Shown piece by piece: positions 1,695-57,718 of a DNA stretch of 64,000 nt. Position 1 is the first letter of the stretch, and each line of letters starts with the position of its first letter. Position numbers and translations under genes: made by a program. Location of the stretch: assembly GCA_947561395.2 (NCBI GenBank), contig OX387194.1:29460036-29524035 (forward strand), written 5' to 3'. The DNA is from Buxus sempervirens. Lineage: Eukaryota > Streptophyta > Magnoliopsida > Buxales > Buxaceae. The notes under the pieces are model-generated. The model was given only the letters and a program-made list of their open reading frames with translations, had not been told where the DNA came from and did no database searches.

Positions 1695-4572
1695 TGTGCG
1701 CACGTCAGGGGAATGCGACGTGAGGGTGCACGCGATGAACGGGGGATTTAGGAGTCGCCACTGCCTGATGGGGTGCAGGCAGATACCTGGGTGCCCTAAG
1801 GATGTCTACTTTGGTTTGCGGCTTGAGATTTCCGCTAAGGTCTCGATTACGGTCCGGGGAAGTCCGTAGACACCCCGGTCCGCCCCCGTCGGTTGACGGG
1901 TCCCATGTGTTTCCCTGGTTCGAGTCAATCTTGGTTCCACTCACCCTTATGTCCTAAACCAACATGCTCACTTATTAAGTCTAAGTGGGACCTTCAAAGG
2001 TGTGGGTCCCTTTTATTTTAATTGATTTTATCTTTTTATCCATATGATGTTGGTCTGATGTGGGCCCCGTTGGAAGGCCCATTGGGTACCAAAGAGGGCT
2101 TAGGTCAAGCCCAATTCCCATTTGGGGTTATGTTGGATAACCCCATTTATTGGATTTGGTTATTTGATTTGGGAGTTGCTTATTTACACAAAATTGATGG
2201 GTTTACTGGGCCTAACCGCAGAACAGATGTGGTTTGGCTTCAACCGCACACGCAGTGCGGTTGAGGCCAAATCGCTCTGTGTGTGTGGTTCCGGCCCATA
2301 AAACCCGAAAGGGAACTTTTCCTGGGGGCTTTGGATTCATGGGTCTCTTGTGATGTTTCAGGAGTTGTGTGGGCCCCTGTGTGGGCCCACAGTGGTTTTG
2401 CGAGAGGGGAAGACCTCCTTTTTGGCCTCTTTTGGAATTCTTCGACAAAGAAAAAGGGGGGGGGGGGGGGGAGGGAGAAGGCATTGGGGGTGCTGCCCCT
2501 CATTTATTTTCAGCAATATACAGTAGTGAGACAGGGGTCTTGGCACCCCTATCTGGGTGTTTTTACTTCACTAATCAATAAATAATCCAGAACCAACAAC
2601 AAGACACATCATATGGCATCACTGCAAACTTCACGAAATAAATAAAGGGGAACTTTGCTATAGGTACAGTGGAGTAGCAGCAAATAAATGGTAAGACATG
2701 CTAGGTAGAAATAGGGCATTGCATGTGGGCTAGGTGGAGGGTGGCACGCATGCTTAGGGCTAAATGGGTTGGGCTTGGGGGTGCAAGCAGGTAGTTAAAC
2801 CTGCTGGGTACAGTAGCTGAACCACAGGGAGTTTATGCATGCCAAAATCAGCAAGTGTAAAAATTGGGTAAGCATGGAGGCATTTCGACAATCTCAGGAC
2901 AACCGCTGTTGAGAGGATGGACCATGATATGAAGGCCTAAAATGGTGAGGAAAAGGAAGGATTTGCTGCTGTCCCCGGCAGCAACCTTCACAGGTTATGA
3001 CAAAGGGGATTATGGGGTAAAGGGAATATGCTCATCAACCCAAAACAGTAAGCTAGGGGGGGGGGGGGGGGCATACAGGGGGAACATATTAATGACTCAA
3101 AAACAGCGACCTAGACATGCAAAACAATAAAGAAAATAACACCACATACGTGCATGTGTGTGTTCATCATACCCTTTTTCAAGAAGATTTGGAAATCAGA
3201 AACGACACCATTAGATAGGATGATGTAAAAACAATAAAGGGGGCTGCATTCTCACATCCTACCAGCAAGGTATGTCGTGTACCCTTCTTGGTAACAAGCC
3301 AGCATAGTATGAGGGAAATCCGCAAAGCCATATTCATACAAAAAAAAAGGAAACAGAAATAATCTAGCATGGATGATCTCTCATCCTCATCCTCTCCCTA
3401 GAGTTACAAAAAAGAACCAAAACAGTAGCTTAGATGACACAAAATGCATGAACGATTTCTCATCCTCTCCCTAGAGTTACACATACCCTACCTTTTACCT
3501 TGGAGACTTCCATATAGCAAGATGTCAAGCAAACATGCAAGGGTAATCTAAAAGAAAAAGTTCCAAGTGAAGGAGAGAATAAGCTTCTCCCAAAACATCA
3601 TTTTCATATATATGGTACAAAACACCACAAGAAACAATAGTTGGGGGTGAGGAGGTCCTGGAGCAGTGTATGGGACTCCTTTGAAGCAAAACCAAGTGCT
3701 GGGAGGCTCGCTTTCAGCAGCAACAACAACTCAAACCCTCTTCTTTAAGCTTGGTAGTGGAGGAGAAGAAAGGTGGAGGGCTTAAGAGGCCTTGGGAGTG
3801 GGTTTGGTAGGTGTTGGAGGCAAAAGAGATGGGAGAAATGGGGTTTGGAAGTTCAGTGGGTAGGGGAGAAGGAACAGTGGAAGTCAGCCATCCTTAGTCC
3901 CATGCTTGGATTTTGCTTTTATAGCACATTGAGACAAAACCGCATACTTAGAGTGGTTTTGCCAAAAGTGAACAGTAACCGCACATATTGTGCGGTTTGG
4001 TCGAAACCGCAGCGTATGTGCAGTTTTGGCACTGTTTTTTAAACATTTAATAGGGGACAAATTGGTCAGTGTAGTCTGGCGCGCCATGCAACCGCACTGT
4101 AGACGCAGTTGCCTTTTCGCGCGCCGCTTGCGCTGATTGGTTGGCGCAAGCGGTGGCCGAAAAAATCGACTGCACTTCACATGCAGTCGTGGAAAATCTT
4201 TCAGATGTGCCCTTTTTTCCCTCTTTTTTTGGTTGTGTTATGGTTGAGGTTACTCAGCCGCTCACTCGGACGATTTGGACTTCCCCAATTTTTATTATTT
4301 TCCATTTATCTTAATTAGTTTAATTAAAATATTTTAACTTTGACTGATTTGCCCCTGGGACTGTTTTGCTCATATCTTCTTCATCCGGCCTCCGATTCCT
4401 ACAAACTTAATTGCGTTGGAACCATGTCGGGATGCTCTACCCATTGGGATAGGGTATAGCAATCAATTTGGGGTCAGAGAGAAAATTATCTTTTGCTATT
4501 AAGGGTTTAGACCTGTCTTTGAGGGTTTTGCTTTCGGGCTTTTTAGAGGGATGCAAAAATGAGGTGCTTACA
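1695..4572 (-). repeat. Element A 3' LTR
   Basis: On the plus strand the LTR runs from TGTGCGCACG at 1695 to CTTACA at 4572. On the coding strand it starts TGTAAGCACC and ends GTGCGCACA. It matches 46449-49184 along its length but with clear divergence. Reading in the element's direction there is a cluster of short palindromes built on AACCGCA/TGCGGTT (about 3938-4190), then a TATA box (TATAAAAGC, about 3913-3921), and a further palindrome of the same type at 2238-2262. A G homopolymer of about 16 lies at 2455-2470 and another at 3057-3070. Confidence 0.9.
3938..4190 (-). promoter_or_regulatory. AACCGCA-type palindromes upstream of the element A TATA box
   Basis: Several short inverted repeats occur here: ACCGCACA with TGTGCGGT at 3979-3999, AACCGCA with a diverged partner on each side of it, GCAACCGCACTG with a diverged partner at 4086-4111, and GACTGCA with TGCAGTC at 4169-4188. 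On the coding strand they lie immediately before TATAAAAGC. In the other LTR of A the last one reads GACCG with CGGTC, so both arms changed together. The same arm type recurs once about 1.7 kb downstream in the LTR. The function is unknown. They could be binding sites for a dimeric factor or RNA/DNA hairpins. Confidence 0.6.
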
Positions 4573-7829: not shown

Positions 7830-7834
7830 GGTAT
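7830..7834. repeat. Target-site duplication GGTAT of element D, left copy
   Basis: GGTAT is repeated at 29269-29273. The copies lie directly outside TG at 7835 and CA at 29268. The flanks are consecutive pol sequence of element A, which confirms that D inserted into A. Confidence 0.95.
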
Positions 7835-8370
7835 TGTAAGCACCTCATTCTTGCGCCCCCGAAAGAGCCGGAAATGCAAACCCTGGTTAAAAAGTCAAAC
7901 CCTGATGGGTCAAAATTTGACCTTTTGATCAAGTAATAAACTTCCACCTCGCTTCATCCCATTGGATAGAGAATCTCGACACGATTCCAACGCAACTGGG
8001 TTTGCAGGAATCAGAGTCCAGATAAAGGTTCTAAGGCCGGTCAAACTTGAGGGAAAGCCAAGAGTTGACTTTTCCTCGATTTCCGTGCCAAATACCTTAC
8101 TTTAGCCCAATGGATAGAGAATCCCGACGCGGTTCCAGCGCAATTGGGTTGGCAGGAATCAGAGTCCGGATGAAGATTCTAAGGGCGGTCAAACTTAAGG
8201 AAAAGCCAAAAGTTGACCTGTTCTCGGGATCCGTGCCAAGTGCTTAGCCCCATGTCATTAAATAGAGGGCTCCAATACGAGTTTAACACAATTGAGTTTG
8301 CTCAAATCGGAGTTCGGATGAAGGAGATGTGATCTGTCGAAGTTTCCGAGTAGCAGAAGCCGGAAACTGC

Positions 8371-8399
8371 ACACGTGGCGCAAGAACTGCACACGTGGC
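8371..8399 (+). promoter_or_regulatory. Doubled ACACGTGGC (G-box/ABRE-like) in U3
   Basis: ACACGTGGC occurs at 8371-8379 and 8391-8399, exactly 20 bp apart, within a repeated ACTGCACACGTGGC context. The CACGTG core with GC flank is the classic plant bZIP/bHLH G-box and abscisic-acid response element. The pair recurs at the same spacing in the 3' LTR of D (26659-26687; the first copy has one changed base just upstream) and in solo LTR B (33805-33833). It lies about 400 bp upstream of the TATA box. Regulation by stress or ABA is inferred. Confidence 0.65.
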
Positions 8400-8541
8400 A
8401 GCCAACGCATCAAAATATCTCAGGAACTAAATCTTAAATATAAAATTTTCGTACGGGCGATCCGTAGATATCAAAAAAGGTCAAATCGGTCGAGTCAGTC
8501 GAATCGGTCAAGTCGAGGGGCAAATCCGTAAATTTTCGATT

Positions 8542-8808
8542 TGTATCCGGTTACCTATACCGGATACACTGCCTCCCCTTCTTATCCGGACTTGAAGACC
8601 GGATACATCAAGATATTCGCGCGAGATCCGCGCCGATCGCCCGACAAATTCGCGGCGGCATTTAATTTTCGAATGATTATGTCTTGTATCCGGACTAGAA
8701 GACCGGATACAAAGGGAAGCTAGGGTATCCGGACTTGAAGTCCGGATACGAAGAGGCCTTAGTGTATCCGGCCTGAGTTGCCGGATACATTAAAATTTCT
8801 ATAAATAG
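8542..8808 (+). promoter_or_regulatory. Five GTATCCGG palindromes ending at the TATA box
   Basis: There are five inverted repeats. TGTATCCGG with CCGGATACA lies at 8542-8568, TATCCGG with CCGGATA at 8583-8605, and TTGTATCCGG with CCGGATACAA at 8684-8712. GTATCCGGAC with GTCCGGATAC lies at 8725-8749, and TGTATCCGGC with GCCGGATACA at 8763-8789. TATAAATAG begins 11 bp after the last one. Loops are 6-10 nt and mostly differ. The position suggests promoter elements, but the arms would also fold as hairpins if transcribed. Confidence 0.75.
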
Positions 8809-9829
8809 CAAACCAGCAGCTCATTTCCGGGGTTGGGCTTTTCTTGGCTGTCTTGAGCTTCCTCCCTCCACTCTTCTCCCACACGAATCCCCACCCCTTC
8901 AACCCCTTTTGGCCCCCATACCATCCCAAGCCCTTCCCCCCTTCTCCTTCTCCTCTCTATCCCCACTGAAAGAAGAAGGACTTGAGCGGCTGTTGGTGTT
9001 CCAAGGAGGCCTCCAGGAGCTGTACCACCCCCAAGGCATGCCACCACCTTGCACAAGAGGTCAAGGACCTCAGGTATCACTCCTCATCACTTTATCTTCC
9101 ACATATATTAAATGTAGATTTTTCGGTGAGATTTCCTTTTTTTAGTTTTCTTGTCCAGCATGGCTTCCCTTTAGTATGGTTTAAGCATGTACTCTTCGTC
9201 ATTCGCATGGCATGAAGTCACCACCAGCATGAGGGTCACGTAGGCTTCGTTAAGGAAGCCTGGGATTCTTATCCAAGCATGTCCTAATCCCTTTTAGCTA
9301 CGGTGCATAGATGTATATTAAGTGGTTTCCAAAGGGAGCATGTCCCATCTTATGATCGAATGTACCCCCATAAATCCCCCTCCTCTTTCCCTTCTCCGAA
9401 GGTTTCACGATGGGCCACCAGCCTAGGCCCACACCTAGCCGGATACCTTCACTTTGCTGGGATGTCTTGTTGATTTTCACATAGGATGCATAAGAGCATG
9501 TGTATGCATTTTTGTATGTGGGAATGTGTTTTTTTGTTTTGTTTGTCATCTTAACATGTTGACTCATGCATGCAGTCGTGAGAGCCTGGAGACCGAATGG
9601 GGATACATTGGTCCCCATTCCCATGGCTGGCTTGACCCAGGATGACAGGGAGGGCAGCAGGCCCCCCATTGGCTTTGCCAAAAAGTCCAAGGAGAGAGGC
9701 CAAAGGTGGCTCCTCCCACAATCTGAACATACGTGGGCTCATCCAGGAGCCCACAAGACCCTTAACATGCCCCTGGAACCCCCTGGGATCAGTCCCAAAA
9801 GGCCAAAACCCAAAAAGGCCAATTCCAGA

Positions 9830-9935
9830 GTGATCCGGATACTCAGACCGGATCACCTATGGCCTCTGTGTATCCGGATACACTGACCGGATCACCCTCA
9901 GACCCTGCATATCCGGCCTGAGTTGCCGGATACGC
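9830..9935 (+). promoter_or_regulatory. Second cluster of the same palindromes, downstream of the TATA box
   Basis: GTGATCCGG with CCGGATCAC lies at 9830-9856. A self-complementary TGTATCCGGATACA sits at about 9869-9882. TATCCGGC with GCCGGATA follows at about 9911-9933, with the loop CTGAGTT that is also used in the palindrome next to the TATA box. The cluster is about 1 kb downstream of the promoter, so it should be in the transcript. One palindrome has TGATCCGG arms in which both sides differ from the GTATCCGG type together. Confidence 0.7.
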
Positions 9936-10983
9936 ACAGTAGCATGTCTTTTACATATCTTGTTCCTTTGCCGAATTTTGAAGTGATTTGTGTACAAACC
10001 AATGAACCAGCTGGGTTTCCGGGCCACCCGGAAACCCAAGAAGGGACTTGGACCAACCGGTCCAACCAGGCACACTTTTGGGCCTTCCAACGGGGCCCAC
10101 CAAGCCCAATGAACCAAATGCATGCTAATTAAACAACCTAAGTAAAATGAACCAATTTAAGCGGACGGGCCAAGCCCAATGCGGCCCGCCCGAACCTTGT
10201 GATGTGTATGGATGCATAAAATGCCTGGTTTGGCCGAGACCATGGGCTAGGGCCTGTCGGGCCCACCAAAGCCCGCTAACCGAACCAAGTTAGGTAAAAA
10301 CCCTAAGCTTTGAAGCACCGGGCTTTCAAAGCCCGAAATCTGGATCATGGGCCCCAAGCCCAGTGACCAGCCCACTTTGGCAAGACTAAAATGAGATAAC
10401 AGAAAATCACTTGGCCACCAAGTGGGCCTGCCTAAGGGGCCCACAAACCAATCCGGCCCACCACCTGCATGAAAATAACTCAATAATCAAACTGGAACCC
10501 CCATGTAAAATCAATACATTAACCAAAGCCCCCAGGGCCTCCTAGGATAGGCCGAGGCCCACAAGGGCACACGGGCCAACTCAAGCCCATTCAGAACACC
10601 GGTTGGGCCTTCCAACGGGGCCCACCCAATCAGACTCAGAAAACCCTAAAATGAAAGATAAAATCAACTAAAGGGACCCACACCAACTCAGGCGGTCCCG
10701 CCAAGACTCAATCCGAATTACATGCGGGATTAGGAACCGGGTGAGAACCAAAGCGAGAAAGCTGACTCAAAGTAGGGAACCCACGGGACCCGTCATCCGA
10801 CGGGGTGGACTGGGGTGTCTACGGACTTCCCCAGACCACAACCGAGAACCGACTCAGAATCTCAAGCCGCAGACCAAAAGTCTTAAATAGACAAGATTAG
10901 GCACCCAGGTGTCCGCCTGCACCCCATCAGGCGGGTGGCGACTCCGAATTACCCCGTGCCGCGTTTCCCACGCGCGCACAGCC

Positions 10984-11002
10984 TGGCGACTCCACTGGGG
11001 AC
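10984..11002 (+). other. Primer binding site of element D
   Basis: TGGCGACTCCACTGGGGAC begins 3 bp after the 5' LTR. This is the position and type of primer site found in Ogre-group elements, for which priming by an arginine tRNA has been reported. The tRNA assignment is from family knowledge and not checked here. The first ten bases also occur inside the LTR at 10936-10945. Confidence 0.82.
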
Positions 11003-12527: not shown

Positions 12528-13961
12528 ATGGCATCTTCATCCTCATCTGAGAGAACCCGTTTCCCTAGGATAGAGAAGTGCGCCTGGGATACCCCCTGGA
12601 TCCGTTCTTGGACAAGGCAGCTCCAAGGGAGTGAGCAGATTGAATGGGAGCACAAATACCACATGGGACAGACTTTGTCCCTGTTAAATGTGCCGATTAA
12701 CTGGGATATGATCCAAGCAGCCCTGCTTTTCTGGGATCCCCAGCTTTCAGTGTTTCGATTCGGGGTCAATGAGTTGACTCCCACAATTGAGGAACTTGAC
12801 CTGTTCCTCCGATTCCGTGACTTAGGAGAACCCGCTAGGCCAAGTCTCAAAGAAAGTTACAAGAATGAAGCTTGTATTTTCTTTGGCCTCTCAAGGGGAG
12901 AATTTCAGACCTTAGGAGGTGACAAATCATTTACTCGGGTCTCTAAAACATTCCTAGCTGAGAAAATGAGAAACAAAAAGCAGGAAAGACCCCGGGCTTG
13001 GTTTGACAACTTCACCCTTGTGGTTCTGTCACAAATCTTCTTTCCAACTGGGGGAGACACCATTAATTTGGCCCTCATGGAAATTGTGGATCAACTCAGG
13101 GCAGGATACCGAATCATGCCATTGATCCTAGCTCAACTGTTCCATTCCCTGACTTTGTCCAAAAACGGAACTCGGAGGTTTCAAGGGTGCGCTCCCCTTC
13201 TCCACATTTGGCTGCAAGACCACCTGATGGTGTCATCACCAGTCAGTGCATATTACAAGGCAACTGGAGACAACATCCATTGGTTGGCTCAAAGAGAGAT
13301 CAAACCAGACCTACCCACTCGTGAGGATTGGTTTAACCACTTTCTCCACCTGAAAGGAGAAACGGACATCAGATGGTGGGGTACATACAACATCCCCTAC
13401 ACCCCCATCATAGCTTTCAAGAAAAGAGAGGGACTTGACTTGATAGGCCTCACCCATGCCATGCCGTACTATCCGATTCGGGTTCTGAGACAGTTTGAGA
13501 AACCGCAGGGAATCCCAGTCAAGGACGACATGAGCAGTTTGATTGGTCCACTCACCAAGGGACTAAGGACCCAACTGTTGACAGAGTGGAAGACAGTTTG
13601 CATATATCGAGAAGATGTCTTCATCGAATCGCACTTTCGAGACTACGAGCAATGGATAGCTCGGGAATTTGGCCATGACGGCCCCCCACCTCTTCAGTCT
13701 GTCGCATCAGGCGACATTCCAGTTCCACCCCCTAACACATATAGGGACAGGGTGGCCGAACTGCAAGAGACTCACTCCCGTATCCATTCAGCTTATGTGG
13801 ATTCAGAACGGGAGAGTAGGCAGGCCAATACGGCCTTGCAACATGAAATGGAATTAGTGCGCAAGCGCGCTGAGGAGGACCGACGTCTGCGGAACAAGCT
13901 TCTGCGAGCCTTGAGGAGGCAGGACGTGTCCTCCCACTATGATGATGACCAACCTAGCTAG
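12528..13961 (+). CDS. Ogre ORF1, DUF7745 / plant-mobile-domain-like protein (477 aa)
   Basis: This is the extra ORF that lies upstream of gag in Ogre elements; its role is unknown. I chose the ATG at 12528 (MASSSSSERTRFPR) because the older copy A has the equivalent methionine and serine run. The open frame continues upstream without an ATG. Residues about 55-100 carry PINWDMIQAALLFWDP and FRFGVNELTPTIEELDLFL. These match the pattern of the DUF7745 / plant mobile domain family, in which an FWDP motif precedes an L.PTIEE motif. The C-terminal 80 residues are charged and probably coiled-coil (RVAELQETHSRI to RRLRNKLLRALRR). The frame is intact. The sequence shows no catalytic motif. The family name is recalled and not searched. 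Confidence 0.82.
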   Translation: MASSSSSERTRFPRIEKCAWDTPWIRSWTRQLQGSEQIEWEHKYHMGQTLSLLNVPINWDMIQAALLFWDPQLSVFRFGVNELTPTIEELDLFLRFRDLGEPARPSLKESYKNEACIFFGLSRGEFQTLGGDKSFTRVSKTFLAEKMRNKKQERPRAWFDNFTLVVLSQIFFPTGGDTINLALMEIVDQLRAGYRIMPLILAQLFHSLTLSKNGTRRFQGCAPLLHIWLQDHLMVSSPVSAYYKATGDNIHWLAQREIKPDLPTREDWFNHFLHLKGETDIRWWGTYNIPYTPIIAFKKREGLDLIGLTHAMPYYPIRVLRQFEKPQGIPVKDDMSSLIGPLTKGLRTQLLTEWKTVCIYREDVFIESHFRDYEQWIAREFGHDGPPPLQSVASGDIPVPPPNTYRDRVAELQETHSRIHSAYVDSERESRQANTALQHEMELVRKRAEEDRRLRNKLLRALRRQDVSSHYDDDQPS

Positions 13962-14307
13962 ACTTTGGCTTTGTTGTATTTTGCCATGAATGATGATGTA
14001 CTTTGTGCCGTGACGGCGCCTTTTGATTAAAGCATGAATTTATTTCTACTTTGCTACATATTGTGCAAACTTAATAAGAACAAGAGATAAAATAATTAAT
14101 TCCCTCCAATAGGGCAAATCGGTCTCCGACAGACCACCTCTCTCCAGATAATTGCAATGTGCTTGGTCGCTGCGACCACCTAATTTCCTTTGATTGCATC
14201 TCTCTCATTGAGATCGCCAAACCCGGCAAGTGTTTAAAAACACCTGAGACTTTGAGCTCAGATCACACCCGTCTGCATCTTTTCAAGATCATACGGTCAA
14301 GCCTGTA

Positions 14308-14887
14308 GGGCACCGAAGCCGCCGACGGATGAGTCGGATATTGGTGGAGGAGCGTCCTGGCATAGCCTACCCCTTTCAGTGACACCAAAGCCGCCGGTGA
14401 TTGAATCGGATATTGGCTGCGGAGCGTCCGGGTACTACTAGCCGAATTCTTAGGGCACCGAAGCCGTCGACGGATGAGTCGGATATTGATGGAGGAGCGT
14501 CCTGGCATAGCCTACCCCTTTCAGGGACACCAAAGCCGCCAGTGATTGAATCGGATATTGGCTGCGAAGCGTCTGGGTACTACTAGCCGAATTCTTAGGG
14601 CACCGAAGCCGTCGACGGATGAGTCGGATATTGGTGGAGGAGCGTCCTGGCATAGCCAACCCCTTTCAGGGACACCAAAGCCGCCGGTGATTGAATCGGA
14701 TATTGGCTGCGGAGCGTCTGGGTACTACTAGCCGAATTCTTAGGGCACCAAAGCCGCCGACGGATGAGTCGGATATTGGTGGAGGAGCGTCCTGGCATAG
14801 CCTACCCCTTTTAGTGACACCAAAGCCGCCGGTGAGTGAATCGGATATTGGTTGCGGAGCGTCCGGGTACTACTAGCCGAATCTTTG
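14308..14887 (+). repeat. Tandem array, four copies of a 145-bp unit
   Basis: Units start at 14308, 14453, 14598 and 14743. Each is itself a dimer of two related halves of about 73 bp that share AAGCCG, TGA.TCGGATATTGG and GGAGCGTC. The array lies between ORF1 and gag. Element A has a related array in the same place (about 39776-40140) with a different unit but the same GCCGACGGATGAGTCGG-type core. It is non-coding; short open frames in it are by-products of the repeat. Confidence 0.9.
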
Positions 14888-19845: not shown

Positions 19846-22800
19846 AGTTGACCCAGCCAACGAAGTCACCATCGCATACGCGCCACCCGAGGACGAGATA
19901 CCATGGGCAATCGCCCTCAGTGGATCATGGGTAAGGGTATCGTCAGAGTCTGGCCCCCGATCAGAAAGAAGCCAGAACAAGCCGGTAGGAGGCGCAGCAC
20001 ATGATCCTATCTACATCTCTTCTGACGAGAGCGCCAACATGGTACTAGCAGGAGAACCAGAGAAGACGATTGCTATCAACAAGGAAGGCGGGGCACCATT
20101 GAAGAATTGGAGCGCCATGCCTTTTGCTATCAGCAAAGCTACTATCCCAAAGGGGGTTTCTATCACCTCTGAAATCTCTGTTGTAGCTACTGCTGAAGTT
20201 TTTAATGAATATCTGAATGCTTCCTACTACTTGCATCTGTTTGAAAATGAAAATAACAAAAATAAGCAGCTCGAGCATCGCAAGCTTAGTGCCAATCCCG
20301 ACGCACACCTGGAAGATCTGGGGCACGGGATAGGTAATAAGATTGCCATAAGTGAACAAAAAGAACAAAAAGAAATTGAAAAGCCAGTCCAGATGGCAAT
20401 AATAAATGAAATGCATGAGCCAGTGTCCAATCCTGAATACGAGCAAGAACTCGACACGTCAGATTGGGGCACTCGCCCATCGCAGCAAGAAGATTCAAAC
20501 ATCGTCCCCTGTGAGCCTTTCGAGCATGAGGACGACGATGAATCATGGGAGACCCCGCTTGAAATCCAACTTGCACTGGAAAGGCACGAAAAGGGTCTCC
20601 AGGCTAACATTGAGGAAACAGAGTCAATTGACATAGGTGAAATAGCACAACCAAGGATCCTCCAAATTGGTAAAAAGCTGTCACCATTATTGAGAAAACA
20701 GATGTTTGATTTTCTTAAATCTTATTCTGACGTGTTTGCATGGTCATACGAGGATATGCCCGGGTTAGACATGGACTTGGTTGTGCATCGGTTACCAACG
20801 AAGTCTGAGGCCGTACCTGTGAAACAGAAGCTCAGGCGCACGAAGCCGGAATGGGCCCTGAAGATCAAGGAAGAGGTCACCAAGCAGTTGGATGCCGGAT
20901 TCTTGCAAGTAACTCATTACCCGGAATGGTTGGCCAACATCGTGCCAGTTCCCAAGAAAGACGGGAAAGTCAGGATGTGTGTTGACTATAGGGATCTGAA
21001 TAGAGCAAGTCCGAAGGACGACTTCCCATTGCCGCACATTGATGTACTGGTTGACAATACTGCAACGCATTCGATGTTCTCCTTCATGGACGGCTTCTCT
21101 GGTTACAACCAGATAAGGATGGCACCTGAGGACATGGAGAAAACATCCTTTATCACACACTGGGGAACTTACTGTTACCGCGTGATGCCGTTCGGATTGA
21201 AAAATGCGGGTGCTACATATCAACGTGCGATGACTCTGTTATTCCATGACATGATACACAAGGAAATGGAGGTGTACGTGGATGACATGATAGCGAAGTC
21301 TTAGGAAGAAGAAGACCACTTGGTGAACCTTGGAAAGATGTTCGACAGACTCAGAGAGCACAAACTCCGGCTCAACCCAAACAAGTGTGTGTTTGGAGTG
21401 ACTTCAGGAAAGCTGCTCGGCTTCATAGTGGGCAAGCGAGGCATTGAGGTCGATCCTGTCAAAGCAAAGGCAATTCTGGAGATGCCTCCTCCATCGACAG
21501 AAAAGGAAGTGAGAGGATTCCTGGGTAGATTGCAGTATATCAGTAGGTTCATTGCGCAGATGACTCCTGTGTGTGAGCCTATATTCAAGCTGCTAAAGAA
21601 AGACAACCCTGTGGTTTGGAATGACGACTGTCAAGTAGCGTTTGATAAGATCAAGGCCTACCTGATGAGTCTGCCAACATTGGTCCCACCTGTCCCAGGA
21701 CGACCCTTGATTATGTATCTGACAGTCTCTGAGACGGCTGTAGGATGTGTGTTAGGACAACACGATGAGAAAGGACGGAAAGAACAAGCAATCTACTGCC
21801 TAAGCAAGAAATTTACCAACATCGAAGTCCGATACACAGTGCTCGAAAAGACGTGCTGTGCCCTAGTCTGGGCAGCTCAGAAGCTCCGACACTATTTGCT
21901 TAGTCACACAGTCCTACTAATCTCCAATCTGGATCCATTAAAGTACATCTTTGAGAAGCCGATCTCCACTGGTAGGGTTGCCAGATGGCAAGTCCTTTTA
22001 TCTGAGTATGACATTGTCTACACAACTAGGAAGGCAATAAAAGGGCAAGCTGTGGCGGATCACTTGGCAGAACATCCACTACCTGACTACCAACCGCTTC
22101 TGACTCACTTCCCAGACGAAGATGTGATGTGTACAGAATCTGCAAATGATACAGAAGAAACCAAGTGGCAGATGTTCTTTGACGGGGCAGTGAATGTGAA
22201 TGGAAAAGGGATCGGAGCAGTGCTAATCTCCCCAGACGGTGTCCATCACCCGATAGCAGCGAAACTTCTGTTTGATTGCACTAGCAACATGGCCGAATAT
22301 GAAGCATGTGTGTTAGGCCTGCGAGCGGCAATTGAGATGCATATACAAGAGCTGAAAGTGTTCGGTGACTCAAGTCTTATTATCTATCAAGTGATAGGAG
22401 ACTGGAAGACCAGAGATGTGAAATTAGTGCCATACCAAGAGCTGATCAAGGAATTAGAAGAGGAATTTGAGAGCGTGACATTTGACTACATGCCACGAGA
22501 CGGGAACCGTTTTGCGGATGCACTAGCTACGCTGGCGTCAATGGCCACCATCACGGATAATGCTTGGGTGCAACCATTGGAGATAGAAATTCGGCGCTAC
22601 CCTGTTTACTGCTTCAGTATCGAGAAAAGCACACCCGAAGAAGAGCCTTGGTACGCGGACATTGAGAGATACATAAGGAACAGAATTTTGCCAGAAGGTG
22701 CCTCAGCTGCAGAGAAGCGAACTATACAGAGGTTGGCAGGGCAATACTTCTACAGTGGAGGTAGGTTGTACAAGAAGTCATACAACGATTCCCTACTGCT

Positions 22801-26122: not shown

Positions 26123-29100
26123 TGTAAGCACCTCATTCTTGCGCCCCCGAAAGAGCCGGAAATGCAAACCCTGGTTAAAAAGTCAAACCCTGATGGGTCA
26201 AAATTTGACCTTTTGATCAAGTAATAAACTTCCACCTTGCTTCATCCCATTGGATAGAGAATCTCGACACGATTCCAACGCAACTGGGTTTGCAGGAATC
26301 AGAGTCCAGATAAAGGTTCTAAGGCCGGTCAAACTTGAGGGAAAGCCAAGAGTTGACTTTTCCTCGATTTCCGTGCCAAATACCTTACTTTAGCCCAATG
26401 GATAGAGAATCCCGACGCGGTTCCAGCGCAATTGGGTTGGCAGGAATCAGAGTCCGGATGAAGATTCTAAGGGCGGTCAAACTTAAGGAAAAGCCAAAAG
26501 TTGACCTGTTCTCGGGATCCGTGCCAAGTGCTTAGCCCCATGTCATTAAATAGAGGGCTCCAATACGAGTTTAACACAATTGAGTTTGCTCAAATCGGAG
26601 TTCGGATGAAGGAGATGTGATCTGTCGAAGTTTCCGAGTAGCAGAAGCCGGAAACTGTACACGTGGCGCAAGAACTGCACACGTGGCAGCCAACGCATCA
26701 AAATATCTCAGGAACTAAATCTTAAATATAAAATTTTCGTACGGGCGATCCGTAGATATCAAAAAAGGTCAAATCGGTCGAGTCAGTCGAATCGGTCAAG
26801 TCGAGGGGCAAATCCGTAAATTTTCGATTTGTATCCGGTTACCTATACCGGATACACTGCCTCCCCTTCTTATCCGGACTTGAAGACCGGATACATCAAG
26901 ATATTCGCGCGAGATCCGCGCCGATCGCCCGACAAATTCGCGGCGGCATTTAATTTTCGAATGATTATGTCTTGTATCCGGACTAGAAGACCGGATACAA
27001 AGGGAAGCTAGGGTATTCGGACTTGAAGTCCGGATACGAAGAGGCCTTAGTGTATCCGGCCTGAGTTGCCGGATACATTAAAATTTCTATAAATAGCAAA
27101 CCAGCAGCTCATTTCCGGGGTTGGGCTTTTCTTGGCTGTCTTGAGCTTCCTCCCTCCACTCTTCTCCCACACGAATCCCCACCGCTTCAACCCCTTTTGG
27201 CCCCCATACAATCCCAAGCCCTTCCCCCCTTCTCCTTCTCCTCTCTATCCCCACTGAAAGAAGAAGGACTTGAGCGGCTGTTGGTGTTCCAAGGAGGCCT
27301 CCAGGAGCTGTACCACCCCCAAGGCATACCACCACCTTGCACAAGAGGTCAAGGACCTCAGGTATCACTCCTCATCACTTTATCTTCCACATATATTAAA
27401 TGTAGATTTTTCGGTGAGATTTCCTTTTTTTAGTTTTCTTGTCCAGCATGGCTTCCCTTTAGTATGGTTTAAGCATGTACTCTTCGTCATTCGCATGGCA
27501 TGAAGTCACCACCAGCATGAGGTTCACGTAGGCTTCGTTAAGGAAGCCTGGGATTCTTATCCAAGCATGTCCTAATCCCTTTTAGCTACGGTGCATAGAT
27601 GTATATTAAGTGGTTTCCAAAGGGAGCATGTCCCATCTTATGATCGAATGTACCCCCATAAATCCCCCTCCTCTTTCCCTTCTCCGAAGGTTTCACGATG
27701 GGCCACCAGCCTAGGCCCACACCTAGCCGGATACCTTCACTTTGCTGGGATGTCTTGTTGATTTTCACATAGGATGCATAAGAGCATGTGTATGCATTTT
27801 TGTATGTGGGAATGTGTTTTTTTGTTTTGTTTGTCATCTTAACATGTTGACTCATGCATGCAGTCGTGAGAGCCTGGAGACCGAATGGGGATACATTGGT
27901 CCCCATTCCCATGGCTGGCTTGACCCAGGATGACAGGGAGGGCAGCAGGCCCCCCATTGGCTTTGCCAAAAAGTCCAAGGAGAGAGGCCAAAGGTGGCTC
28001 CTCCCACAATCTGAACATACGTGGGCTCATCCAGGAGCCCACAAGACCCTTAACATGCCCCTGGAACCCCCTGGGATCAGTCCCAAAAGGCCAAAACCCA
28101 AAAAGGCCAATTCCAGAGTGATCCGGATACTCAGACCGGATCACCTATGGCCTCTGTGTATCCGGATACACTGACCGGATCACCCTCAGACCCTGCATAT
28201 CCGGCCTGAGTTGCCGGATACGCACAGTAGCATGTCTTTTACATATCTTGTTCCTTTGCCGAATTTTGAAGTGATTTGTGTACAAACCAATGAACCAGCT
28301 GGGTTTCCGGGCCACCCGGAAACCCAAGAAGGGACTTGGACCAACCGGTCCAACCAGGCACACTTGTGGGCCTTCCAACGGGGCCCACCAAGCCCAATGA
28401 ACCAAATGCATGCTAATTAAACAACCTAAGTAAAATGAACCAATTTAAGCGGACGGGCCAAGCCCAATGCGGCCCGCCCGAACCTTGTGATGTGTATGGA
28501 TGCATAAAATGCCTGGTTTGGCCGAGACCATGGGCTAGGGCCTGTCGGGCCCACCAAAGCCCGCTAACCGAACCAAGTTAGGGTAAAAACCCTAAGCTTT
28601 GAAGCACCGGGCTTTCAAAGCCCGAAATCTGGATCATGGGCCCCAAGCCCAATGACCAGCCCACTTTGGCAAGACTAAAATGAGATAACAGAAAATCACT
28701 TGGCCACCAAGTGGGCCTGCCTAAGGGGCCCACAAACCAATCCGGCCCACCACCTGCATGAAAATAACTCAATAATCAAACTGGAACCCCCATGTAAAAT
28801 CAATACATTAACCAAAGCCCCCAGGGCCTCCTAGGATAGGCCGAGGCCCACAAGGGCACACGGGCCAACTCAAGCCCATTCAGGACACCGGTTGGGCCTT
28901 CCAACGGGGCCCACCCAATCAGACTCAGAAAACCCTAAAATGAAAGATAAAATCAACTAAAGGGACCCACACCAACTCAGGCGGTCCCGCCAAGACTCAA
29001 TCCGAATTACATGCGGGATTAGGAACCGGGTGAGAACCAAAGCGAGAAAGCTGACTCAAAGTAGGGAACCCACGGGACCCGTCATCCGACGGGGTGGACT

Positions 29101-29268
29101 GGGGTGTCTACGGACTTCCCCAGACCACAACCGAGAACCGACTCAGAATCTCAAGCCGCAGACCAAAAGTCTTAAATAGACAAGATTAGGCACCCAGGTG
29201 TCCGCCTGCACCCCATCAGGCGGTGGCGACTCCGAATTACCCCGTGCCGCGTTTCCCACGCGCGCACA
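26123..29268 (+). repeat. Element D 3' LTR
   Basis: This copy has the same length as the 5' LTR, 3146 bp. It carries the same doubled ACACGTGGC (26659-26687), palindrome cluster, TATAAATAG and downstream cluster. One base in a palindrome arm differs from the 5' LTR (GTATTCGG near 27013). The match extends cleanly to CA at 29268, followed by GGTAT. Confidence 0.95.
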
Positions 29269-29273
29269 GGTAT
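29269..29273. repeat. Target-site duplication GGTAT of element D, right copy
   Basis: This matches 7830-7834 and is followed directly by minus-strand pol sequence of element A. Confidence 0.95.
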
Positions 29274-31336: not shown

Positions 31337-32373
31337 GGGTCTGTGCGCACCCGATTTCGGTCGCACGGCGAGGTGCACGCAAAGCGATGCGTGCCTCGGG
31401 ATTTGTTTGGAGTCGCCACTGCCTGATGGGGTGCAGGCAGACACCTGGGTGCCTAAGTTCTTCTACTAAGGCTTTTGGTCTGCGGCTTTGAGATTCTAAG
31501 TAGGTTCTCGGTTGCGGTCTGGGGAAGTCCATAGACACCCCAGTCCACCCCGTCAAGTGACGGGTCCCATAAGTTTCCCTGGTTCGAGTCAACTCAGTTG
31601 GTCTCTCACTCACCTGATTCCTAATCCAGCATTCGATTTAGTTAAGTCTGGTGGGACTGCCAAAGTGGTGTGGGTCCCTTTACTTGATTTTATCTTTTTA
31701 ATTAGGATGATCTGGGTCTGGTGGGGTGGGCCCTGTTGGAAGGCCCACGGTATCCCTTGGTGGGCCAAGTGTGGCCCTTTGGACTTTGGTTCAATTTTGA
31801 ATTGATTTTATTTTGAAGTTCAAGTTGGATTAGTTAAGTGGATTTCATGTCAATAGTGGGACGGGATTGCTTTGTGGGCCCTTGAGTGGGCCACACAGTG
31901 GGTTGCCAAGTGATTTAATTTATCTTTGATTTATCTTCACCAAAATGGGCCAGGCATGGGGCTTGGGGCCCTTTACCTGGGCTTGGGCTTGAAAGCCCAA
32001 GACGGCTTGAGTTAGGGTTTGGAAACCCTAAGTTGGTTGGGTTCATGGACTTAGTGGGCCCGATAGGCCCAACCCATGGTCTCGGTCAAACCACAACCTG
32101 CTTTAAGCATGCATGGCCCAAACAGGGCTTGGGTGGGCCTCAAGTGGTCTGGCCCACTCAAATCTTTTATTTATTTTATTTAAGCACATATAGGTTGGTC
32201 GGGCTTGGTGGGCCCTGTTGGAAGGCCCACCGGAACTCAATTTGGACCGTGTCGATCCATGGCCCCTCTTGGGTTCCCGGGTGACCCGGAAACCCTACTG
32301 GTTCGACCGGATTTGATCAAACAAGCCAAAACATAGCATAAGATCAGAAAATGGCTCAAAATGATTTCTGACA

Positions 32374-32520
32374 GTGTAGCCGGCCTGAGATGCCGGTTAC
32401 ACACAGGTCTCGGTGTATCCGGTATCTATTACCGGCTACACATGGGCTTCTGTGTATCCGGTATCTATTACCGGCTACACATGGCCTTATGTTGATCCGG
32501 CCTGAGTTGCCGGATCAGCA
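32374..32520 (-). promoter_or_regulatory. Downstream palindrome cluster of solo LTR B
   Basis: There are four inverted repeats. A TGTAGCCGGC type comes first, followed by two copies of TGTATCCGGTA paired with TACCGGCTACA. The last is a perfect TGATCCGGC with GCCGGATCA, whose loop CTGAGTT is shared with D. On the minus strand this cluster lies about 0.9-1.0 kb downstream of the TATA-like box, as in D. Confidence 0.65.
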
Positions 32521-33406
32521 CACAGAAGCTGTTTTTTGGGTTTTCAGCAGTGGGGTTGGGTTTTTATGCCTCTTGGGAGGTTCCAGTGATCATGTGGGCT
32601 CCTGTGTGAGCCCACGTTGGTTCAGGTGATGAGGAGTCACCTTATCTTGGTCATTCTTCGGGGTTCCTTAATAAGGACAAAGGGGAAAATGGAGGGGGCT
32701 TCCCCCTTTGATCGTTCCCTTGGGTAGAAACCAGCAGGGGAACAGAGGTCATGTGCCTCTGTTCCGGTTGTTCACGGCCACAAATGGCAACCCAACACGC
32801 ATGGTCACAACAATGCTCATGTACACGAAAGTAAAAAAAGAACAAATGCATCACATGCTGCTCAAACCACAGCCATGCAAGATCAAATCACGCCTTGCTA
32901 AACAAGGTGTCTACAGAAGGGAATAGGGGGGTTACATAGGGGTTACATGGGATCATACGCGAGGAAACATGCTTCCTCTTAAGATACCAAACACATGTCA
33001 AGGCAATGGCAAGAGGAGAATAACACATGCTAACATACCATGAAGACAAATTTATGCTAAGGAAGAAAGCAAGCTGGGCAAACTCTTCAGAAAATTCTCA
33101 TTTTAATATATGTACAATAAAATGTGAGGAGGAATCATACATGGGGGTTCTTGAACCCCGGAGTGGTGTAGAGAACTTCCTTGAAGCCGGAATAGTTGCT
33201 GGAACAGCCCCTCCAAGCACCAACAGCAAGCTCTCCTTCTTCCCTTGAGGTTTGAAGTGGACAAGATGAGGGAGAAGGTCAACGATGGTTTTAGGTTTGA
33301 GGGAGCAAGAGAGGGTTAAAGTGGGAGATTTCGGAGCTCAAACAATGGGGGAAGAAAGGGGGAGAACAGGTAAGAAGAGGCCCCCCCGGATATGAGCTGC
33401 TGTTAG

Positions 33407-33675
33407 CTATTTAAAGACACGTTAATGTATCCGGCAACTCAGGCCGGATACACTGAGGCTTATTCATATCTGGTCTTCATGACCGGATACACTAAGGCTC
33501 CTTTGTATCCGGTCTTCAAGTCCGGATACAAACACAATCATTTGAAAATTAAATGCCGCCGCGAATCTGTCGGCCAAGTGGCGCGAATGTCGCGCGAATA
33601 TCTTCATATATCCGGCCTTCATGTCCGGATATGAAGGAGAGGCAGTGTATCCGGTATACATGACCGGATACAAAT
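33407..33675 (-). promoter_or_regulatory. Upstream palindrome cluster and TATA-like box of solo LTR B
   Basis: Five palindromes lie at 33426-33452, about 33474-33490, 33502-33532, about 33606-33636 and 33645-33675. All are built on GTATCCGG/CCGGATAC or a close variant. On the minus strand the last is followed after about 10 bp by TTTAAATAG. This is the same arrangement as in element D. Confidence 0.7.
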
Positions 33676-34226
33676 CGAAAAATTACGGATTTGCCTTCGA
33701 CTTGACCGATCTGACCGATTTGACGCTTTTGGATATCTACGGATTGGCCCGTACGATTGTTGATATTTAAGATTTAGTCCCTGAGATATTTCGCTGCGTC
33801 GGCTGCCACGTGTGCAGTTCCTGCGCCACGTGTGCAGTTTCTGGCCTTTGCTGCTCGGGAACTTTGACAGCTCATATCTCACTCATCTGAACTCCGATTT
33901 GAGCAAACTCAACTGCGTTGAACTCGTATCGGAGCCCTCTATTTAATGACATAGGGCTAAGCACTTGGCACCGGGTTCGAGGAAAAGTCAACTTTTGGCC
34001 TTCCCTCAAGTTTGACCGCCCACAGAACCTTCATCCGGACTCCGATTCCAGCAAATTCAGTTGCGTTGGACTCGTGTCGGGATTCTTTATCCAATGGTAT
34101 AAAGCAAGGTAGTCAAATTTCACTTGATCAAAAAGTCAACTTTTTGTCCCCTCGGGGTTTGACTTTCTGCCAGGGTTTTTATTTTCAGCAATTGCAGGGG
34201 TGCAAAAATAAGGTGCTTACAGGGTC

Positions 34227-38989: not shown

Positions 38990-39775
38990 AGAAGGGAAGA
39001 GACCCCCAGGTTAGAAGACTGATCTATTTTAGCCACTTGGAGGTGACTGGGAGAGAGAACCCTATGAATCTGATTTGTTTTAGTCACTCGTAGGCAACTG
39101 GGAAAGAGAACCCGGATTTTTGTGAAACTGATCTGTTTTAGCCATTGTAAGGTGGCTGGGAAAGAGAACCCTGATTTTTTTGAAAGCTGATTTGTTTTAG
39201 CCACTGTAAGGCGGTTGGGATAGAGAACCCTGATTTTTTAAAGATAGATCTGTTTTAGCCACTATAAGGTGGCTGGGAAAGAGAACCCTAATGTTTGAAG
39301 ACTGATTTGTTTTAGCCACTGTAAGGTGGCTGGGATAGAGAACCCTAATTTTTTGAAAACTGATCTGTTTTAGCCGCTGTAAGGCGGCGGGGATAGAGAA
39401 CCCTGATTTTTGAAGACTAATCTGTTTTAGCCACTGTAAGGTGGCTGGGAAAGAAAACCCTAATGTTTGACGACTGATCTATTTTAGCCACTGTGGCTGG
39501 GATAGAGAACCCTAATTTTTTGAAAACTGATCTGTTTTAGCCACTGTAAGGTGGCTGGGAAAGAGAACCCTAATGTTTGAAGACTGATCTGTTTTAGCCA
39601 CTGTAAGGTGGCTGGGATAGAGAACCATAATTTTTTAAAACTGATTTGTTTTAGCCACTGTAAGGTGACTGGAATAGAGAACCCTGATTTTTTTTGAAAA
39701 CTGATCTATTTTAGCCACTGTAAGGCGGCTGGGAAAGAGAACCTTAAAGTGCTAACCTATTTTAGCTGCATCAAA
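38990..39775 (-). repeat. Tandem array of about 14 hairpin units in element A
   Basis: The period is about 57 bp. On the minus strand each unit has AGGGTTCTCTTTCCC, then AGCCACC-TTACA-GTGGCT, then AAAACAGATCAGT. Most stems are AGCCAC/GTGGCT. One unit (near 39370) has GCCGCC with GCGGC, a paired change. It is the counterpart of the seven-unit array at 15022-15400 in D and sits in the same place, between ORF1 and gag. Confidence 0.82.
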
Positions 39776-40140
39776 GCAACAAGGGAAGGGAACCTTGGTT
39801 TGGACCTCGTCAAGTCTCTGCAGGGGGTGAGCTAAACAGCAACACCCGGGCTCACCTAAGCCTGTCTTCGACTCATCTGTCAGCTGCTTCGGCGCCACCA
39901 ATTTTGGACCGTGTCGGGTCTCAGCAGGGGGTGAGCTAAACAGCAACACCCGGGCTCACCTAAGCCTGTCTCCGACTCATCCGTCGGCTGCTTCGGCGCC
40001 ACCAATTAGGATTGTTAGATCCAAGTCTAAAAGAAATATTTACCGAGCTCACCTAAGCCTGTCTCCGATTCATCCGTTGGCTGCTTCGGTGCCACCAATT
40101 AGGTTGTTAGATCCAAGTCTAAAAAGAAACATTGAAGTGT
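39776..40140 (-). repeat. Degenerate tandem repeats, counterpart of the 145-bp array
   Basis: Two to three repeats contain AGCCGACGGATGAGTCGGAGA and GGTGAGCCCGGGTGTTGCTG on the minus strand. The GCCGACGGATGAGTCGG core matches the 145-bp array of D; the rest of the unit differs. It is non-coding. Confidence 0.7.
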
Positions 40141-40646: not shown

Positions 40647-43600
40647 TGTGAGACATGGAAAATCAACTCAAATGATTCCCAAATGATCATACGGGCTCAA
40701 CAAAAAGGGAGGAGTCGCCACCATTCCTTTTAGGTGTGAATGGACACCAAAAAGATTAAATCAAATGAAAAAGATAAATTAGAGTAAAAATAACCCTAAA
40801 AATAAAATAAACCAGAGATGGGTAAGGGGATTAGATTATGAATAGAGGAAGGTGTTAGGCACCCCTATTCATCCACACAAGGTGGTTGCCAAGTGTTCAT
40901 GCTCAAAATAAAGAAAGCTTGCTAATTAAAACAATAAAAAGGCTTGAAAAGAATCAAACACATGTATGATTCCTCCACATGAATAGTCTAATGAATCTTA
41001 GACCCTCTCTATGGAGGTATCACTTCTAGGACATCACCATTTTGCAAATCAAAGTAAAACTTGAATACAAGCAAGTTAAGGCAAATCCGGAGAGTTCGGT
41101 AGAAGATGGAGCCATTTGAGCATAAATCATTCCAATCAAATTCAAATTGAATGAGACCAAAGCCATTTGAAAGATTACGTTAAATATAAGACTCATGAAA
41201 ATTTCCAAGTAAATCCGATTAAAATCCTAAGAGATATGCTTGTTTGAAATCTACTGTTATAAGTTGATAAACATGACAAGTAGGCAACTTTGAAAACCTA
41301 TTTGTGGAGATTGGCTCCATATAAATCCTTGAAAACTTGCATGAATGAAGTATAAACTGCCATATTTCACATGAAATAGGCCCCACACAAAACTTAATTC
41401 GAATGTGACTTGTGTGACCTCCCGAACACGCTCAGAGGATCACAGATTAACCCAGAATTCTGCTATTGAGCAGTTCTGAGTAAATCAGACACACAAGACA
41501 CAAATGAAAGCAAAAACATTTGAAACCAATTGGATTTGAAAGTATATTCATAAGGGAAAACACAGAAATTAAAACCACTTAAATCTGACTTAAAACGAGC
41601 AAATGGTGCTCAGTCAAAGTGACAGGTTCAGCAATCTGACCTGAACTGACCTGTCGACTTTGATCAAATGGTGTCAAACATTCACTCAATAAAAATTGCT
41701 GAAATTTTACAGACAAAGACTAGACAATCTCACCTTTCCCATGTATTTGGAATCACTCAAAAATTCATCTGAATGAGGAAGTTATGAGTGTTCTAAGATA
41801 GGGTATAGGTGCTGTCCTGATTTGAAACGTTTAAGTAAAATCAACCCAAAACAGTGAGCAAGTGTGTGTGATCTGAACCAAAATCATTTGGAAAAATGTT
41901 GGAAAACCTCTAGAAAGATACAGGGCATGAATTTGGCTCAAAAGTCTCATTAATTGGAGAGAAAATACCAAAACCCCCAAAATAGAGCAAAAATGCCCGA
42001 AACAGAGAGACTAGACCATAAGGACTTCTCTAGTCTTAGAGGAACTTGCTTGTAATCTTTGAAAATCATTAGGAAATGTCCAAAAAAGATTTAGGGCAAG
42101 GAATCGGTTCATATATCTCATTGATTAAGAGATTGAACCGAATATGCCCGTTTTAAGACAAAAATCCCAACTTGAGAGGTTAGACTATGAAAGCCTTCTC
42201 TTAAAGTTGGGATCACTTGAAAATCATCTAAAACAGTGAGAAAATGCTCAAGAAACATCTAGGGTAAAGATCCGATTCATGAATCTTATAGATTAAAGAA
42301 AATGAATCGAATGTACCCGCATTGAAACGAAAATCCCAACTTGAGAGATTAGGCTATGAAAGCCCCCTCTCAAAGGTAGGATAACATGAAATCCATTCAA
42401 GGATCACAAAAATTGATCTAAGGCCATTTATTTCAAATCTATCATAATGAATACGATAGATCCAAAATACAAGCCTATTTCTCATCAAAATAAGTGAGAT
42501 GTGTGCATGTGTAAAAATCATCTTTTTTCGGAGGGAATGAAGATCCAATGCTATAAAGAGCATGGATCTTAGTATTCTCTCCAGAAAACAAAATCAAATT
42601 CATAAAATTAATCAACACATCACAACATGTAGCATTCAAAGTATATCAATCAAATGGGGGTTCTATAACTAGGGTTCCATTCCCATTCTCGTTTCCCTTA
42701 GTTTTCTCTTCACGTTTTACGGCTAGAGATAGTCTTGAGGTACTTTGAGACAGGAATGGGGTTCCAAACAAACTTAGGCCATTACTCTAAAGAAAGGAAG
42801 AATGAGAGACTAATTTTAGAATTTAAGAACAGAAAAGTAAAAGAAGGCTTAAGGCTTACCTGGGTTTCTGGGAGCAATGAAGCAGAGGTTTCCTTCTTCA
42901 CTTGGAGCTCATAGATCTCCAAATTTTTGGCCATTTGCTTGAGGAGAGGCCTCCTATTTATAGGCAAAGGCTAGGGCAAAGGGGAGCCCTAATGGTAGAC
43001 ACAAAGATGTGTCTAGAATCCCTTCACTTAACCCTAAGGCTAAATTTGGGAATTCCTCCTCCTTAGACAGGGATAAAATAGTAAATAGTGAAAACTCTCG
43101 AAATTTTCCAATTTTGAGCAAAACACTTGTATCCGACAACTCAGGTCGGATACAAGTAATGACCTTTGTATCTGACACAATCCATCGGATACAATAAAAA
43201 TTATTTGTATCCGACGAGTTCTGTCGGATACAAAGAAACAAGTTTTTATCCGAATTTTTATTTCGGTTCAGAGCAAAAATGACTCTCTGCACAGCTTCTG
43301 CATGTCACTGACCCTTATCTGCACAGGCAATACTTATTTACATGTAATATCATTTAAGTAAATGTCATCGTATTTTTTAATCTCAATTTACTTAAGATAT
43401 TACATGTAAATAAGCAAACACCCCCCCCCCCCCCCCCAATTGAATCCATAAAAAATAGTTCTAGACCCAAATTCCAAGTGAATAAAAAGTCAACTTTTCA
43501 GTTCAAGGCAAAATTCCGATTTTTCAGGTCCGGTAAAAAGATTCAACATGTTAATACCAAGGTATTTGTCAAGATTTAAAGGCTCAAAAAATTCATTTAT

Positions 43601-57702: not shown

Positions 57703-57718
57703 ACTGCCCCTCTTTGCT
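57703..57718 (-). other. Polypurine tract next to LTR E
   Basis: AGCAAAGAGGGGCAGT on the minus strand directly precedes the LTR start. It is one base different from the tract of D, which places the C/E/F family in the same Tat/Ogre group despite different LTR sequence. Confidence 0.82.

Follow-up and report, generated by a model that had tools for sequence, protein, structure and literature searches.

Fixed-geometry palindromic arrays in LTR retrotransposons of Buxus sempervirens: candidate DNA sites for a dimeric protein

Introduction

In 64 kb of plant-like DNA from Buxus sempervirens (the window), packed with nested LTR retrotransposons, palindromes of a single geometry, CCG-N11-CGG, recur in the LTRs of three families, with arms that differ by family. 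These palindromes are probably DNA sites for a dimeric protein, and their most likely role would be to control how active the LTR promoter is. Direct observation covers the sites themselves, their geometry, the paired arm changes specific to each family and the better preservation of the arms between lineages; the case is built on seven LTR copies from this one window. Promoter recognition in plant retrotransposons, and its family specificity, constitute a largely open field, and an array of fixed geometry, with a half-site that differs by family and agrees at both of its locations, would offer a defined bait for the protein.

Nested retrotransposons of the window

The elements and sites are summarised in Table 1. 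Element D is flanked on both sides by the target repeat GGTAT (7830-7834 and 29269-29273) and its two LTRs are 99.6% identical. Its genes occur in the order: an ORF with a plant mobile domain/DUF7745 (ORF1), gag, RT, and an ORF with two RNase H domains and integrase. RT, double RNase H and then integrase, together with the gag and plant mobile domain (PMD) ORFs, rule out a Ty1/copia Sirevirus, the order RT, RNase H, integrase being that of gypsy elements. The last ORF combines RT_RNaseH, RVT_3 and integrase, and we take RVT_3 to be the archaeal-type RNase H (aRH) domain. In excerpts of PMC6317226, aRH is a mark of the Tat clade and a 5' extra ORF with a plant mobile domain is present in 57% of Ogre elements; D carries such an ORF, and by these criteria its domain set places it, as far as predicted domains can tell, in the Ogre/Tat clade of Ty3/gypsy. 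A primer-binding site (PBS)-like sequence, TGGCGACTCC, lies at 10984. The RT ORF and the RNase H-integrase ORF of D are separated by a stop codon (21302-21304), despite the near-identity of the LTRs.

D is inserted in the RNase H-integrase region of the older element E, which likewise carries an ORF1 with a plant mobile domain. Two solo LTRs, S and F, also lie within E, and a 12-base polypurine tract precedes the LTR G, identical to the one found before the 3' LTRs of D and E. Several tandem repeats were observed. Near the start of the D LTR a 148-bp unit occurs twice in tandem (7946-8241, 83% identical), while alignment offsets with D suggest a single copy in S. Between ORF1 and gag there are arrays in D (14306-14882, a 145-bp unit in four copies) and in E (39014-40133, units of 57/115 bp and about 100 bp). 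A 123-bp unit is present three times at 49607-49976 (91% matches), and its consensus, judged by eye, presumably resembles copia integrase coding sequence.

Table 1. Elements, palindromic sites and other mapped features of the window
Feature	Position	Strand	Remarks
Element D	7835-29268	+	Ogre/Tat-type Ty3/gypsy retrotransposon
5' LTR of D	7835-10980	+	TGTAAGC...GCACA
3' LTR of D	26123-29268	+	Paired with 5' LTR 7835-10980
D upstream palindrome 1	8543-8567		GTATCCGG-N9-CCGGATAC
D upstream palindrome 2	8582-8606		TTATCCGG-N9-CCGGATAC, 39 bp after palindrome 1
D upstream palindrome 3	8686-8710		104 bp after palindrome 2
D upstream palindrome 4	8725-8749		Symmetric across entire 25 bp
D upstream palindrome 5	8764-8788		Spacer CCTGAGTTG, end 11 bp from TATA box
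D TATA box TATAAATAG	8800-8808	+	
D downstream palindrome 1	9831-9855		TGATCCGG-N9-CCGGATCA
D downstream palindrome 2	9870-9894		Mixed arms, 6/8 paired, 39 bp after 1
D downstream palindrome 3	9909-9933		Left arm ATATCCGG, 7/8 paired, 39 bp after 2
Palindromes in 3' LTR of D (starts)	26831, 26870, 26974, 27013, 27052, 28119, 28158, 28197		
ORF1 of D	12528-13961	+	Plant mobile domain (PMD, E 7.1e-19) / DUF7745; candidate recogniser
Element E, older	LTRs 46452-49184 (5') and about 1695-4572 (3')	-	Target repeat CATAC
E 5' LTR upstream sites	48557, 48596, 48624, weaker 48775		AACCGC type, upstream of TATAAAAG
E 5' LTR downstream sites	46842, 46870, 46898		Cluster about 1.6 kb beyond upstream set
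E 3' LTR sites	2212, 2240, 3936, 3975, 4003, 4088		Partly decayed
Solo LTR S	31342-34221	-	Diverged D relative, target repeat GACCC, within RT region of E
S upstream sites	33427, 33466 (damaged), 33505, 33608, 33647	-	
S downstream sites	32376, 32415, 32454, 32493	-	
Solo LTR F	40647-43872	-	Separate family, target repeat ATGTT, within ORF1 of E
F sites	43129, 43168, 43207, weak 43246	-	GTATCCGA arms
LTR G	about 55237-57703 (by alignment to F)		Relative of F
Second palindrome type	D 10078-10101, 10603-10626; S 31725-31749, 32207-32231; E about 46690-46715		

Palindromic arrays of D and their counterparts in other LTRs

A preliminary description, made from the sequence of the window, had described in D a set of five palindromes that stops 11 bp short of TATAAATAG and another three about 1 kb downstream; all were located, and the distance is 1.07 kb. 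All eight sites are 25 bp long, consisting of an 8-bp arm, a 9-bp spacer and an 8-bp arm in CCG-N11-CGG geometry, and their starts are 39 bp apart within the clusters, except for one step of 104 bp. Both arms are perfect in four of the five upstream sites (the exception is 8582, through its left arm), and the counterpart of upstream palindrome 4 in the 3' LTR (27013) has one arm base changed. Both clusters carry ATCCGG and a partnerless half-site occurs at 9439. Positions 9910-9933 are identical to 8765-8788 in 24/24 bases, spacer included, so duplication links at least one pair of upstream and downstream copies. The N11 spacing, the 39-bp period and this identity go beyond the preliminary description.

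The arms are GTATCCGG in D and S, GTATCCGA in F, and AAACCGC, partly AACCAC, in E. When relatives were checked for loss of the palindromes, the divergent S was found to retain both clusters, with one upstream site damaged. E carries its own half-site, AACCGC, in both its upstream and downstream clusters, although in the 5' LTR two of the three downstream sites (46842 and 46898) show CCA/TGG rather than CCG/CGG, giving the AACCAC half-site. Between the TATA-proximal site and the TATA box the distance is 11 bp in D (TATAAATAG) and in S (TTTAAATAG), and 12 bp in E (TATAAAAG). In F, one of the three main sites has a damaged arm and the last site is 166 bp from the TATA box; no downstream cluster was seen in that LTR. 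G has lost nearly all sites and retains traces only.

Counts, geometry and spacing of the sites

The sequence GTATCCGG occurs 37 times in the window, both D LTRs and their relatives included, against 0.61 expected, and none of 100 shuffles reaches 37. For each LTR, inverted repeats with 8-bp arms, a 9-bp spacer and at least 7/8 bases paired were counted and compared with 200 dinucleotide shuffles. The 5' LTR of D has 10 (shuffle mean 1.4, maximum 5), S has 14 (1.4, maximum 6) and the 5' LTR of E has 7 (1.1, maximum 4), while the 6 in F (2.1, maximum 8) are not significant on this measure. Thus the unusual density claimed in the preliminary description holds against shuffled LTRs for D, S and the 5' LTR of E, and fails to do so for F.

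Across the whole window, 38 CCG-Nk-CGG pairs were found with k from 3 to 29 and at least 7/8 arm bases paired, and k is 11 in 27 of them. These 27 fall in the LTRs of D (5', 7; 3', 6), S (8), E (5', 3; 3', 1) and F (2), and are not independent, as D and E each contribute two LTRs. Of the 21 intervals between neighbouring sites in the D 5', S, F and E 5' LTRs (the weak sites 43246 and 48775 included), 18 measure 39 or 28 bp and the others 104, 103 and 151 bp; the linkers between sites are mostly 14 or 3 bp. The two spacings differ by about one helical turn, and neither corresponds to whole helical turns.

Pairing and family specificity of the arms

For the analysis of pairing, 25 sites were aligned; D and E contributed their first LTR copy only, and the duplicate Sd3, the two weak sites (43246, 48775) and LTR G were set aside. 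In this alignment 93.2% of the arm cells are paired, a figure that falls to 16-40% when the partner is shifted by 1 to 3 columns. Cells changed on both sides number 29, compared with a mean of 7.0 in shuffles that ignore relatedness, and none of 500 reaches 29; the number of varying pairs and that of pair types lie within the shuffles (reached by 52/500 and 55/500). Columns A3, C5, C6, G21 and T23 are invariant.

Family specificity is evident at arm position 8. In 26 tabulated sites all 34 half-sites of D and S have G there, all 6 of F have A and all 12 of E have C; outside that table, the weak site 48775 of E breaks the rule with G on one arm. Site 43129 of F shares the spacer CCTGAGTTG with D, and both arms differ by the paired change G8-C18 to A8-T18. 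In a same-strand blastn comparison of the LTRs of D and F (E up to 0.01), the palindrome is also the sole similarity, extending over 27 nt at 92.6%, and it is matched from the downstream cluster of D as well.

Duplication and constraint

The arrays grew by duplication of related 39-bp units and therefore the sites are not independent; part of the concerted change of the arms could be homogenisation. A neutral origin would take this further, with a 39-bp palindromic unit multiplied by tandem duplication, through slippage or template switching in reverse transcription, and having no role. The 39-bp units and look-alike 14-bp linkers of D and S agree with it, as does the copy at 9910-9933 described above, spacer included. 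We nevertheless consider it unlikely. In each of the seven arrays the arms are more alike than the spacers (mean identity 0.71-0.97 versus 0.30-0.50; 0.97 versus 0.39 in the D upstream array), where for F and the upstream set of the E 5' LTR the first three sites only were used. Moreover, arm changes occur on both sides, and E combines 28-bp spacing and other arms with an unchanged N11 geometry.

The arms also outlast their surroundings between lineages. In the one such comparison made, D against S in the upstream cluster, 76/80 arm positions are identical (95.0%) versus 433/518 other positions in the region (83.6%; Fisher p=0.006). No such excess occurs between the two LTRs of E, which are presumed to have decayed without selection since insertion and served as a control (arms 102/112, 91.1%; rest 2455/2596, 94.6%; p=0.14). 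The stretch that separates the TATA region from the downstream cluster has diverged to 54.5% identity between D and S (39.5-43.8% in five shuffles), yet the cluster is present in both.

DNA sites, RNA structures or a CpG island

The preliminary description had proposed that the upstream set acts in DNA and the downstream set in RNA. This division appears too simple: by general LTR biology, transcription also includes the U3 copy in the 3' LTR, and the downstream set may be intronic, with a candidate donor at 9073 in D. The splice-donor-like motif there is CAG/GTAT, and CAG/GTAT or CAG/GTAA is found 100-290 bp past the TATA box at about 9073 (D), 48262 (E 5' LTR) and 42860 (F), the S equivalent being CAT/GTAT. 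These motifs hint that the downstream palindromes might be spliced out with a leader intron.

Palindromes acting as RNA would form stem-loops in the U3 3' end and in the leader of the genomic RNA, with roles in dimerisation, packaging, 3'-end formation or small-RNA production. The predicted folding energies of both D clusters do lie well below those of shuffled sequences (z -9.7 and -5.0) and the concerted change of the arms would suit paired stems. Strong folding is, however, expected of any repeated palindrome, and the predicted upstream fold pairs arms across different palindromes rather than forming five hairpins. The imperfect pairs are also informative: among 208 arm cells 15 are non-Watson-Crick, comprising 1 sense-strand G-U, 5 A-C and 9 other, and the absence of G-U bias (1/15) speaks against hairpins. 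The fixed 11-bp core spacing and the 28/39-bp site spacing are unexpected for RNA loops. We regard a role in RNA as quite unlikely.

A further explanation, and a very improbable one in our view, is that the CG/CCG-rich boxes form a CpG island which keeps the promoter open or draws silencing, with no site-specific dimer involved. The CpG observed/expected ratio is indeed 1.43 over 8543-8788 against 0.66 for the entire LTR, and Sirevirus motifs form predicted CpG islands, as stated in PMC2829016. But a CpG island needs neither dyad symmetry nor N11 spacing nor paired arm changes, and CpG retention in the arms, sought as a sign of hypomethylation, is not significantly better than elsewhere (9/10 versus 22/34). 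The term "palindrom" has no occurrences in PMC4029996, which deals with CpG islands of Del LTRs.

DNA sites of a dimer fit better than RNA hairpins because the core spacing is fixed and the site spacing quantised, the place before the TATA box is nearly constant in D, S and E, and the arm changes are symmetrical and lack G-U bias. The dimeric factor of the preliminary description, proposed there for the upstream set, thus stands as the best explanation, in the form of a prediction from geometry and paired arm changes.

Such a dimer would read the half-site A(T/A)CCG(N) on each arm of double-stranded DNA, and two CCG triplets 11 bp apart, in the outward order CCG-N11-CGG, would seat one dimer. 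Several dimers would then lie side by side adjacent to the TATA box, and D, S and E would carry a second such row 1 to 1.6 kb beyond the TATA-proximal cluster. The array would serve either as an activator or as a switch, the protein in the latter case occupying the downstream cluster too, and the reader could be encoded by the host or by the element. Binding, dimerisation, promoter control and the use of one protein at both clusters are all predicted from sequence patterns. A single recogniser had also been suggested earlier, and it is the best reading of the present data because within each family the half-site is shared by both clusters: ATCCGG in D and AACCGC in E, the latter with the AACCAC variant noted above. 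Duplication of sites between clusters would be a partial alternative to one shared reader.

Relation to known systems

The claim that such a density of one palindrome type is not explained by known LTR parts did not survive comparison with the Sireviruses, copia elements whose LTRs have repeated palindromes, built around a CGG-CCG core, in the region before the TATA box. Their repeated palindromic motif (RM) is the closest precedent. In the portion of Bousios et al. (2010, PMC2829016) considered here, it is present in many copies per LTR, mostly upstream of TATA, is CpG-rich, and has element-specific sequence around the CGG/CCG core; extra copies are located mostly before the env-like gene. 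A repeated palindrome cluster upstream of the LTR TATA box is found here too, and the Citrus Sirevirus RM, AATCCGGCTWRCCGGATT, has ATCCGG/CCGGAT arms in common with D (PMC2829016, same portion).

There are also differences. Sireviruses belong to Ty1/copia, unlike D, and the same portion of PMC2829016 reports the motif as absent from the classic retrotransposons compared there; Sirevirus cores are CGG-CCG with short and varying intervening bases, as against CCG-N11-CGG in the three families described here. Core order gives a mixed picture: D and S hold CCGG-N9-CCGG, which includes CGG-N9-CCG, while E and F have the outward CCG-N11-CGG only. The 39/28-bp site spacing, and the second cluster downstream of TATA in D, S and E, also set these arrays apart from the RM. 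The kind of feature is thus known from Sireviruses, and D-type arrays would appear to add fixed spacing and another LTR superfamily, to which the palindromic promoter boxes of Sireviruses would be extended.

A second parallel is provided by the VANDAL elements of Arabidopsis, which are DNA transposons. Their VANC-target motifs are, in the excerpts of PMC5735166 and PMC10398659 considered, family-specific short tandem motifs in noncoding DNA that differ between related families, and the recogniser is element-encoded, has been tested and acts in anti-silencing, whereas the reader in the present case is only a candidate. By analogy, an element-encoded reader of family-specific motif arrays has its model in VANDAL (PMC5735166, PMC10398659, same excerpts), although the excerpted text of PMC5735166 holds 0 occurrences of "palindrom" and "inverted". 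The plant mobile domain proteins MAIN/MAIL1 share a domain with ORF1 of D and E but, in excerpts of PMC7156037 and PMC9899485, the "DOWN" motif of the MORC1 promoter, CATGCAGTTT, bears no resemblance to these palindromes.

Among the open-access literature matches listed, no report of palindromes in Ogre/Tat LTRs was apparent from title or start of abstract, and for GTATCCGG as a literature string the titles of the matches listed gave nothing on plant LTRs. The exact D palindrome occurs in eight stretches of viral contigs, with one self-complementary site each, which were taken as chance. In collections of viral and non-plant genome sequences, patterns from the RNase H-integrase ORF of D matched 1 viral and 16 genome stretches, and tblastn showed no relative among these; two PBS patterns gave 0 and 0 matches. 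Relatives outside the window were thus not found in these collections.

ORF1 and the candidate reader

Ogre-type elements might encode their own sequence-specific dimeric regulator, with ORF1 as the natural candidate; the arms of each family would then co-evolve with it, and related families sharing a genome would not cross-activate. We consider this more specific proposal doubtful but worth stating: if true, it would represent a retrotransposon counterpart of VANC/VANDAL and provide a function for an unexplained plant mobile domain ORF. More generally, any element-encoded reader would suggest a role for the plant mobile domain ORF of Ogre elements.

A domain search of ORF1 matched PMD and DUF7745 alone. 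The sole PDB match, to a BEN domain, was rejected as not significant (E 0.9), and an AlphaFold model made without an alignment was poor (mean pLDDT 38.5), with a confident C-terminal helix only, at about residues 421-460. Between D and E, ORF1 is 64% identical over its main 350-aa stretch, and 47% and 78% in two others. The RT and RNase H-integrase pieces are 79-89% identical in eight of nine cases (41% in the ninth), while the gag pieces, at 33-68%, are as diverged as ORF1. The divergence of ORF1 is compatible with a fast-evolving regulator, though gag has diverged equally. Among possible host readers, LOB-domain proteins are CGG-reading dimers; the literature matches listed for them held nothing usable.

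Other palindromes in the LTRs

A second palindrome type, GGGCC-TTCCAAC(N)-GGGCCCAC, recurs in D, S and E, whose other palindromes differ; in each case it lies in the 3' half of the LTR. D has a variant of it at 10422-10445. Another palindrome, GGGTTTCCGGG..CCCGGAAACCC, lies about 80 bp past the downstream cluster; it is found in both D LTRs (10013-10037 and 28301-28325) and, with one mismatch, in S (32271-32295).
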